A DNA stretch of 64,000 bases, from contig CAIRBH010000025.1 in assembly GCA_903876765.1 (NCBI GenBank), positions 1 through 64,000 of the forward strand, read 5' to 3'. Every line of letters starts with the position of its first letter. Position 1 is the first letter of the stretch. The notes under the pieces were generated by a model. The model did no database searches. It was not told the DNA's origin and saw only the letters and a list, made by a program, of their open reading frames with translations. The translations under genes and the position numbers were made by a program. Of the stretch, positions 61,462 through 64,000 are shown piece by piece. The DNA is from an uncultured Pseudomonadota bacterium. GTDB lineage: Bacteria; Pseudomonadota; Gammaproteobacteria; Burkholderiales; Methylophilaceae.

Positions 61462-62436
61462 TTAAATAGCAGCTAAATACTTGCTAGGATCAACCGATTT
61501 GCCTAAGCGGCGAATTTCAAAGTGCAATTTAACCAAATTGCTATCGCTATTGCCCATTTCTGCAATTTTTTGCCCTGCGCTAATTTGCTGACCTTCTTTG
61601 ACCAAAATTTGGCTGTTATGCGCATAGACAGATAAATAAGTTGCATTATGTTTAATAATCACCAACTTGCCATAACCACGTAAATCTGAGCCGCTGTAAA
61701 TCACTTTGCCAGCGGCGGCGGCATTGACAGATTGACCTGTGGTGCCGGCGATATCTAGCCCTTTGTTGCTGGCCTCACTGAAATTTGCAACGACTTTGCC
61801 CTTGGTCGGCCATGCCCACTCTATCTCTTCTGCCGATTCATAGGCAGCTTTATTGTCTGGCTTGTTATCCAGATTAGCCTTATTGGCTGGCTCAGCATTG
61901 TTGGCAGCAGGCGCTTTATTGGCAGCTGACGCAGTCACTGGTTTAGCAGTGGGTAGCGGTTTTTTTAGGGCTTCATCGCTGTAGGGCTCGCGAATTGCCT
62001 TGGGCTCGTTAATGCTAATGGCTGTCATGGCGCTGGTTGCTAGCGTGTTGCCATCAGTATTGATGGGGGTGATTTCTACACCATCACTATTCGCTTGGGC
62101 GGCATAGTCTTTTGTTGCCTTTAGTTTGAGTACTTGGCCAACTTGTATGTTGTACGGCGCCAAAATATTGTTATTTTGCGCGATGTCTTTGTAGTAATAG
62201 CCATGCTCAAGCCCTATGCTGAATAAATTATCGCCTTTTTTCACAGTATAAGTGTCTGGCCGCCAATCGCCAGCTTTGTAAGTTGGTCTAGTCGTGCTGC
62301 TGGGTTTTTTAGCCGCAGTACTGCCAGTAGTTTTGCTAGCGGGTATGCGATCAATGACCGGGGCAGGTGGGGTGCTACTACATGCCACTAGGCCAGTGGC
62401 TAGGCATACTATTGCTAGATATTGTGTATGACGCAT
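61462..62436 (-). CDS. nlpD: NlpD-like LysM/M23 lipoprotein (amidase activator)
   Basis: It is an outer-membrane lipoprotein of 324 residues that should activate a periplasmic amidase during cell separation. Seen: a lipobox (LVACS, about 16-20), a LysM domain (about 60-105: YTVKKGDNLFSIGLEHGYYYKDIAQNN), an Ala/Asn/Lys-rich linker and a C-terminal M23 domain. The M23 metal ligands are degenerate, with NKGLDIAG where active enzymes have a HxGxD-type motif, as in E. coli NlpD. It follows pcm by 2 bases. rpoS, the usual next gene, is absent. Confidence 0.93.
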   Translation of the reverse strand: MRHTQYLAIVCLATGLVACSSTPPAPVIDRIPASKTTGSTAAKKPSSTTRPTYKAGDWRPDTYTVKKGDNLFSIGLEHGYYYKDIAQNNNILAPYNIQVGQVLKLKATKDYAAQANSDGVEITPINTDGNTLATSAMTAISINEPKAIREPYSDEALKKPLPTAKPVTASAANKAPAANNAEPANKANLDNKPDNKAAYESAEEIEWAWPTKGKVVANFSEASNKGLDIAGTTGQSVNAAAAGKVIYSGSDLRGYGKLVIIKHNATYLSVYAHNSQILVKEGQQISAGQKIAEMGNSDSNLVKLHFEIRRLGKSVDPSKYLAAI

Positions 62437-62438
62437 CG

Positions 62439-63110
62439 TTATAACAGGCCGCCTAATAAAGGCACAAATTTTACCGCTTCTAGTTTAGTTTGCCGATATT
62501 CAAGTTCTGACAAGCGTTCTACCAAATATAAAATTTGTTCATCTGTACCGACGGGTATGACTAAGCGCCCGCCAATATTAAGTTGGTCTAATAAATCTTG
62601 TGGTATGTGGCTAGCGGCGGCGGTGACAATAATGCCATCAAATGGCGCTAGGTCTTTTAGTCCCATATTGCCATCGGCATGGCCTAATTTGACGTTGACG
62701 CATTTGAGCTCACGTAAATGTCCACGCGCTTTCATGACCAGTGGGCGTATGCGCTCAACAGAATACACTTCTTTGGCTAATTTAGACAGCACAGCGGTCT
62801 GAAAGCCACAGCCAGTACCGATTTCTAGCACTTTGTTTAAGGTGTTGTTATTGCGTAAAATTTCTGACATACGCGCCACAATATAAGGCTGAGAAATGGT
62901 TTGCCCAAAGCCTATCGGCAGTGATACGTCTTCATAAGCCCTGATAGAAAGCGCCTCATCAACAAAAATATGCCTTGGAATAGCGCCTATGGCCGATAGC
63001 ACCACTTCATCTTTAACACCCTGCTCGCGCAAGCGCACCAACATACGATCACGCGTGCGCTGTGAGGTCATACCTATGCCAGTTTGTGCAGATGATCTTA
63101 AAATAGCCAA
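62439..63110 (-). CDS. pcm: Protein-L-isoaspartate O-methyltransferase
   Basis: It methylates isoaspartyl residues in damaged proteins so that they can return to aspartate. The 223-residue SAM-dependent enzyme has [15 protein letters not shown], the SAM-binding [15 protein letters not shown] (about 92-106) and VYSVERI. The start is a TTG at 63110, because an upstream stop prevents a longer frame; an ATG at 63071 ([10 protein letters not shown]) is the alternative. A 9-codon frame overlapping the surE stop precedes it. The surE-pcm-nlpD order is conserved. Confidence 0.95.
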
Positions 63111-63123
63111 CTTGGTGATGCTT

Positions 63124-63882
63124 TCATGGTTGCTTGTGATCTAGATTTAACCATTGTTTAATCTCAGCAAGTTGCGCATGATTGGTTAAATCTACTTGAA
63201 TCGGAGAGATAGACACTTGTTTATGTGCTACCGCATAAAAGTCGGTGCCAGCGCCGCCATCATTTGGCGCACCAGCCGCACCCACCCAATAGACCGTTTC
63301 ATTGCGCGGGGTTTTAAGTTGCACCACAGGCTCAGCCTTATGACGTTTACCTAAGCGCGTGATTTCCCGACCTTGCAGTTCATGGTAGGGGATGTCAGGC
63401 ACATTCACATTGAGTAAAGTAGACGATTGAAAGCCATTTTTTTGGTAGTGCTGTATTAGCTCGACGGCTACTCTGGCGGCGGTTTCAAAATGGCTGGCGT
63501 TATGTTGTGACATAGAAATGGCGATAGACGGAATGCCAAGTAAATAGCCTTCCATCGCCGCAGCAACTGTGCCTGAATAAATGGTGTCATCGCCCATATT
63601 AGCGCCGTCATTAATGCCGCTAATCACCATGTCGGGCATGGTGTCCATCAGGCCAGTGAGCGCAATGTGAACGCAATCTGTGGGTGTGCCATTGACGTAA
63701 AAAAAGCCATTAGCCGCTTTTTTAACGCTTAAAGGCCGATCTAGGGTCAGCGAGTTGCTGGCCCCACTTCTGTTGCGCTCTGGCGCCACCACCGTGATAT
63801 TGGCTAGTTTTGCGATGTGCTGTGCCAGTATGCTAAGTCCTGGGGCAAAGTAACCATCGTCATTGGAGAGTAGTATATTCAT
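63124..63882 (-). CDS. surE: 5'/3'-nucleotidase SurE
   Basis: It is a metal-dependent nucleotidase that dephosphorylates nucleoside monophosphates and short polyphosphates. The 252-residue protein begins [15 protein letters not shown], with the metal-binding Asp-Asp (8-9), and has the conserved [25 protein letters not shown]. The first codons are the last copy of a 26-bp tandem repeat: two upstream copies each hold a 9-codon open frame whose stop overlaps the next start codon by ATGA. No strong ribosome-binding site precedes the ATG at 63882. Confidence 0.96.
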
Positions 63883-63937
63883 ACGAGGTCTATTAAAAGT
63901 ATATTCATACGAGGCTTGTTAAAAGTATATTCAAAGG
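63873..63937 (-). repeat. 26-bp tandem repeat covering the surE start, forming coupled minicistrons
   Basis: Copy 1 (63873-63898) includes the start codon of surE, copy 2 (63899-63924) has 23 of 26 bases identical, and a partial third copy (from 63925) follows. On the minus strand each full unit reads a start codon, Asn-Ile-Leu-Leu and four more codons, then TGA overlapping the next ATG (ATGA). Starts lie at 63934 (TTG) and 63908 (ATG), followed by surE at 63882. The 26-base period causes a -1 shift per unit. Confidence 0.9.
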
Positions 63938-64000
63938 CAAATTATAGTAGAAGACGGGTGCTTTAGTGCGGCACTTATCTAAAAAAGCCAGCGAAATCGC

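Follow-up and report, generated by a model that had tools for sequence, protein, structure and literature searches.

The surE gene of an uncultured bacterium of the Methylophilaceae is preceded by two further copies of its own start, each opening a nine-codon frame whose stop codon overlaps the following start. Mini-frames of the same kind lie between the promoter and surE in related genomes. From comparison of these sequences, we consider it probable that a leaderless start was duplicated in tandem and that the copy was retained as a mini-frame delivering ribosomes to surE through termination-reinitiation.

The window, the whole 64,000-nucleotide stretch of DNA that was analysed, comes from a genus that is probably Methylotenera, a name borne by several of its closest named relatives. 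The group consists of methanol-eating bacteria, and surE is a stress gene. Genes for a biotin ligase, a type III pantothenate kinase and a protein with no Pfam match precede surE, and pcm and an nlpD-like gene follow it (Table 1).

Table 1. Features at the surE locus of the window
Feature	Position	Strand	Description
nlpD-like LysM/M23 protein	61462..62436	-	PF01476, PF01551; probable common operon with surE
pcm	62439..63110	-	Protein-L-isoaspartate methyltransferase, PF01135; probable common operon with surE
surE	63124..63882	-	252 aa, survival protein SurE; Pfam SurE PF01975, E 2.8e-65
26-base tandem repeat	63872..63933	-	2.4 copies
uORF2	63879..63908	-	ATG start; MNILLIDLV*; ends in ATGA of surE
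uORF1	63905..63934	-	TTG start at leaderless position; (M)NILLTSLV*; ends in ATGA of uORF2
TATAAT	63941..63946	-	Predicted -10 element for surE transcription; spaced 6 bases from first start of chain
GTCTTCTAC block	63947..63955	-	Conserved; directly 5' of TATAAT

The start of surE is present in triplicate

The start sequence of surE occurs three times on the minus strand at a spacing of 26 bases, beginning with a TTG at 63934-63932, an ATG at 63908-63906 and the surE ATG itself at 63882-63880. Both upstream frames comprise nine codons, and the TGA of each lies within the ATGA of the following start. The ATGA overlaps, at 63908-63905 and 63882-63879, provide the overlapping stop and start of a termination-reinitiation pair, and both junctions likewise have the RTGA overlap that characterizes leaderless coupled small ORFs; the ATG or GTG start of such ORFs is lacking in the window, where the outermost codon, at 63934, is TTG.

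TRF assigned the repeat a period of 26, 91% matches and a score of 103, placing it at the top of 29 rows for the window. Identity at a lag of 26 extends over 33 of 37 bases at the repeat; over the first 63,800 bases of the window and all lags from 15 to 60, no stretch of 36 bases exceeded 27 matches. Between the two units there are 4 differences in 26 bases. An earlier note on this DNA had described the triplicated start and its ATGA-coupled nine-codon frames, and its coordinates, sequence and frames were all confirmed. That note had also entertained an assembly error as the source of the unit, which is unlikely because the unit recurs in many genomes, including the single-contig G002, G003, G009 and G051; the two-unit form of the window genome is known from its one assembly.

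The leader together with the beginning of surE folded no better than shuffled sequences (z 0.18). Each upstream repeat copy also contains a -10-like hexamer, TATACT (63929-63924 and 63903-63898, minus strand), which arises from a second codon AAT instead of AAA; these hexamers are possible extra promoters with short leaders.

Genomes compared

A surE match was found in 175 of 187 genomes of the family, from which 108 leaders were taken; one (L185) lacked a match to the start, over approximately 100 bases of surE, leaving 107. A closer comparison covered 68 genomes: 48 of the window's genus, 14 of the 15 of its sister genus (g19), and six others, five of which have the direct form described below. 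The 48 are all of the genus genomes with a surE match, G023, G026, G032 and G047 having none, and the one sister-genus genome left out, G170, had a weak match. In the final architecture classes, a spacing of 5 to 8 bases was allowed between TATAAT and the start codon. The surE tree included 67 of the 68 genomes, G012 being dropped as it contributed only a short piece. Its labels derive from a strict 6-base spacing, under which G034 appears as having no frame; at 5 to 8 bases, G034 has a closed frame of 50 bases.

The match in G012 (L049; G012:C173:2768-4301) falls into four pieces, approximately 200-300 bases apart and with overlapping query ends, three of which lie in one open frame of 481 aa; insertions, local duplications or misassembly would account for them.

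The surE promoter predicts a leaderless transcript

The earlier note overlooked both the TATAAT at 63946-63941 and the genus-wide recurrence of the arrangement. A -10 element at such spacing implies that transcription begins at or beside the start codon. The small-ORF transcript would therefore begin at the small-ORF start codon, as we infer from the spacing of 6 to 7 bases in 29 relatives and of 6 bases in the window. In 54 of the 107 family leaders, the surE ATG itself follows an exact TATAAT after 5 to 7 bases, so surE is very probably leaderless in much of the family; in 23 of the 107 the interval is 32 bases (6+26). One leader (L196, from G162) has both spacings, with a second TATAAT that lies within the mini-frame and ends 5 bases short of the surE ATG; G162 may possibly produce both a relay transcript and a direct leaderless one. 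In the parts of the published literature on which we draw, a TA-like signal approximately 10-12 bp upstream of the start is a criterion for leaderless genes (PMC3160421). By this measure, surE is itself a TA-led leaderless gene in 54 of the 107 leaders, and in the window it is the first unit, not surE, that carries the signal.

Aligning 46 of the 48 genus leaders on an exact TATAAT, for which they had been chosen, showed that the flanks are also conserved. The GTCTTCTAC block and a CTAAAC-like element upstream of TATAAT were retained in these 46 leaders, with several variable bases between them. No TTGACA-like -35 element was found at the surE promoter, and a consensus promoter scan returned none on the minus strand. 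A T-run approximately 35-40 bases before TATAAT is conserved in the 46 promoters along with the CTAAAC-like element, which lies at approximately 15-20 bases (window 63961-63986, minus strand); these elements are possibly an activator site.

The earlier observation that a clear ribosome-binding site is missing extends well beyond the window: among the 68 genomes, no exact Shine-Dalgarno match of at least 5 bases occurs at -20 to -4 of the surE starts, and a 4-base match is found in 18 of 68, a somewhat higher share than the approximately 15% of shuffles having at least 4. This absence would be explained by the promoter, since it probably yields a leaderless mRNA. A helping Shine-Dalgarno within the upstream frame, which is usual for termination-reinitiation pairs although not strictly defining, was likewise not found at the surE starts scanned.

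Mini-frames closing on surE recur among relatives

The simplest architecture, in which surE itself occupies the leaderless position, was found in 25 of the 68 genomes (20 of the genus and 5 others); one of these, G045, has TATATT instead of TATAAT. In 29 genomes (29 of the 43 that are not direct), an insert separates the promoter from surE and places an ATG at the leaderless position. The frame opened by this ATG closes exactly on the ATGA of surE in 27 of the 29, through inserts of 26 bases (17 genomes), 29 (four), 38 (two), 50 (two), 44 (one) and 26+29 (one). The last of these, in G167, is a two-step closed chain encoding MTTLLTSHA* and then MKILSLIHNV*. The two exceptions are G002 and G168, whose mini-frame runs into a TAA 2 bases short of the surE ATG. 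Inspection by eye shows closing inserts made of two parts in G011 and G163 as well, and the 26+26 form is confined to the window genome among the 68. Methylotenera oryzisoli La3113 (L055) is among the named records with an insert, here encoding MKIRFISCT*; these records probably overlap in part with other genomes in the sample. The encoded peptides differ greatly among the compared genomes, and no repetition of a regulatory codon was seen in them.

Fourteen of the 43 non-direct genomes have no ATG at the leaderless position, an indication that some lineages can do without the mini-frame. The frame is still closed behind another codon in six: TTG in the window genome, ATA in G018, G006 and G019, and ATT in G008 and G041. 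No closed frame was found in G014, G031 or G098. The sister species G014 and G031 (L034 and L046) have a leader of 27 bases with neither an ATG at the leaderless position nor a coupled frame, and surE must therefore start by another route there. In five genomes forming one sister-genus clade (G159, G165, G166, G172 and G173; L131-L135), no TATAAT is suitably spaced from surE. Judged by eye, these five still have a 26-base stretch before the ATG, with ACGA or AAGA as its last bases, and in G172 an ATG-started frame still closes on surE.

The exact 26-base pattern is confined to surE and its start codon is largely conserved

The exact pattern TATAAT-6-ATG-23-ATGA has 11 matches in 52 genus genomes, all of them at surE, and a reversed-pattern control has 1. 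A genome-wide relay system was rejected on these grounds and on those of a looser relay pattern, which gave 7 matches in the window's genome and 7 in the reversed control. Nor did a scan for TATAAT 1-12 bases before an ATG show a general excess of leaderless starts in that genome, with 153 matches against 238 in the reversed control. One match in a scan at chance level (G000:C45:25981-26023) consists of TATAAT and, after 7 bases, a short frame (MNIVIDNA*) that runs into TGATGA; it is a possible single second leaderless mini-frame.

Random leaders of 18-56 bases closed on surE in approximately 13% of draws. Seven architectures are present among the ATG-started leaders and all of them close, although they are not fully independent. 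Taking five length changes at a chance of one in three each gives a probability of approximately 0.004; the lineages are not independent, and a shared ancestral 26-base insert would alone explain many of the matching lengths.

Every one of the 24 inserts that consist of a single 26-base unit retains the A and T of its start codon, and 19 retain the complete ATG. In 2000 neutral simulations on the surE tree at a rate matching the divergence, retention of ATG in at least 19 inserts had a P of 0.006 and in-frame stops in at most 2 tips a P of 0.049, and both together arose in 0 of 2000 runs. At a milder rate, neither ATG retention (P 0.094) nor stop avoidance (P 0.16) was significant, and both together had a P of 0.015. 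Parsimony changes in the insert climb over codon positions 1, 2 and 3 (3.6, 4.9 and 5.9), and the start codon has undergone 5 changes, a number exceeded by most site triples drawn at random (P 0.0017). We take these patterns as moderate support for selection acting on the start and frame of the mini-frame.

Origin and turnover of the unit

Bases 1-11 of the 24 inserts match surE of the same genome at 83%, and bases 12-26 match at 38%. The latter value is the best of 18 offsets with a permutation P of only 0.048, leaving the second half uncertain, and we accordingly did not retain surE bases 1-26 as the source of the entire unit. A tandem copy of the gene's own start would be the simplest origin of the insert, clearly for the first 11 bases or so and less surely for the rest.

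The earlier note had called for a check of copy number across related Methylophilaceae, and units do vary between 0, 1 and 2 among related species. In a single well supported clade, there are two in the window genome, none in G043, one in G028, one (with ATA) in G018 and none in five more genomes. The direct state requires 12 changes on the best surE tree, at least four of them by well supported branches; the chosen outgroup does not fall on one side of a branch, so that gain and loss are indistinguishable in these counts, as is the ancestral form. Because all units have the same opening bases, the gain or loss of one by slippage could still leave a start at the place fixed by the promoter.

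A relay of ribosomes to surE and its alternatives

Under the interpretation that we favour, TATAAT 6-7 bases before the start would generate a leaderless surE mRNA. In the window's genus and its sister genus, the surE start would have been duplicated in tandem between promoter and gene, with the outer copy taking over the leaderless 5' AUG. A ribosome would initiate at this AUG, translate about nine codons, terminate at the TGA overlapping the surE AUG, and reinitiate on surE, which has no clear Shine-Dalgarno of its own. Slippage or recombination would add or remove a unit, and the 0-, 1- and 2-unit forms would all keep a start at the position fixed by the promoter. The mini-frame likely acts by ribosome delivery rather than through its peptide, because the peptide varies. 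Termination-reinitiation, already proposed in the earlier note, is thus the best-supported reading for the genus, with 27 of 29 frames closing on surE; it applies less readily to the outermost copy of the window. In M. smegmatis, leaderless initiation at TTG worked poorly (PMC4633059), and the three-link chain of the window genome is probably weak for this reason, its first link above all, with SurE output probably lowered or partly uncoupled. A more ambitious version, in which a closed ATGA chain of start codons grows and shrinks by slippage and the number of units (0, 1 or 2) sets the SurE output of each species with no need of a Shine-Dalgarno, we regard as tentative and rather doubtful.

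Two alternatives would dispense with translation of the mini-frame. The 5' AUG could be a standby or landing site, binding ribosomes that then move to the surE AUG, so that the mini-frame is untranslated and incidental. There is precedent in E. coli ptrB, with a 26-base leader, where loss of the 5' AUG reduced downstream expression to below 8% and an early stop left 40% (PMC4965119), and the arrangement is still retained in G002 and G168 despite their early TAA stops. We nonetheless judge this serious rival unlikely, as it predicts neither in-frame closure on surE by inserts of 29, 38, 44, 50 and 26+29 bases nor the scarcity of in-frame stops relative to simulation at matching divergence. The duplication might instead merely supply an unstructured, AU-rich leader of 26-52 bases, with frames and ATGA overlaps as by-products of the 26-base length and the ATGA of surE. 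The shuffle-like folding of the window leader would fit, as would the six genomes, the window's included, that keep the length without an ATG at the leaderless position and the three more without a closed frame. Closure of nearly all ATG-started inserts across several lengths, and a start codon more stable than site triples drawn at random from the insert, weigh against a plain leader, which we consider improbable.

An attenuator-type leader peptide that senses an amino acid or drug is suggested by short frames lying directly downstream of a promoter, but we rejected this and any structured leader as very unlikely: the variable peptides contain no run of regulatory codons that we could see, folding does not exceed that of shuffles, and a frame ending on the gene start leaves little space for an attenuator. 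A narrower question concerns the second copy in the window genome, which could have arisen by slippage and have no effect, being neutral, recent or in decay; this would be compatible with a relay in the relatives, and neutral duplication was already an alternative in the earlier note. The TTG start of this copy, the differences between the two units and the restriction of the 26+26 form to this genome all point that way, whereas both window frames remain open and coupled, and closed two-part inserts exist elsewhere, independently in G167 and, by eye, in G011 and G163. Neutrality of this copy is quite possible, although we lean slightly against it.

If ribosome delivery by the mini-frame is correct, the locus suggests a route for the birth of a bacterial 5' leader from a leaderless gene lacking a Shine-Dalgarno: the start is duplicated and the copies are kept frame-coupled. 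The 0-, 1- and 2-unit alleles at one locus form a natural series for reinitiation without a Shine-Dalgarno after leaderless initiation. Such mini-frames will escape gene callers that require a certain length or a Shine-Dalgarno.

Comparison with known systems

Termination-reinitiation at ATGA gene overlaps is the subject of a study of which Huber is reportedly the first author. The four-base overlap is shared with the surE chain; as described in the portions drawn on here, the overlaps studied join full genes, often with an internal Shine-Dalgarno, in contrast to the nine-codon frames of surE that have no clear one (PMC6728339). Removing the Shine-Dalgarno cut reinitiation in four of five E. 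coli pairs in the same work (PMC6728339), which weighs against the relay given that the surE starts have no match of at least 5 bases.

The 5'-terminal upstream AUGs of E. coli ptrB and rcnR also affect expression of the gene downstream, and for ptrB much of the effect does not require the frame of that AUG to be translated (Beck et al. 2016, PMC4965119). Both of those genes, as excerpted there, have a Shine-Dalgarno, whereas surE has no clear one and its start is overlapped by the mini-frame. A synthetic leaderless bicistronic design in Corynebacterium similarly raises gene expression through a translated leaderless fore-cistron, whose start codon matters (PMC10367133). That design, as its account gives it, is engineered and differs from surE in its 62-base fore-cistron, strong Shine-Dalgarno and TAATG overlap.

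The closest parallel is with mycobacterial leaderless small ORFs with RTGA overlaps, for which a ribosome-delivery logic has been proposed (Shell et al. 2015, PMC4633059); a review takes up the same notion of ribosome delivery by a short ORF (PMC12548453). In the sections of the mycobacterial study on which we draw, these ORFs start at a leaderless 5' end, as the surE mini-frames probably do, and stop within the RTGA of the downstream start, and the coupled architecture is sometimes conserved where the peptide is not; a leaderless ATG in E. coli is there given as yielding approximately 10% of a leadered ATG, a further point against the relay (PMC4633059). Unlike them, the surE mini-frames occur in Betaproteobacteria, at one locus, with an apparently self-copied leaderless start in 0-2 units. 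With them, leaderless coupled small ORFs, for which mycobacteria offer the best descriptions, would come to include members in the Betaproteobacteria. Among the matches listed, the open-licence literature contained no report of the surE arrangement or of tandem leaderless relays, and it contained no paper linking Methylotenera with leaderless. The principle of the leaderless coupled small ORF is known; its tandem, self-copied form, with turnover of copy number at one locus, is new as far as our searches show.
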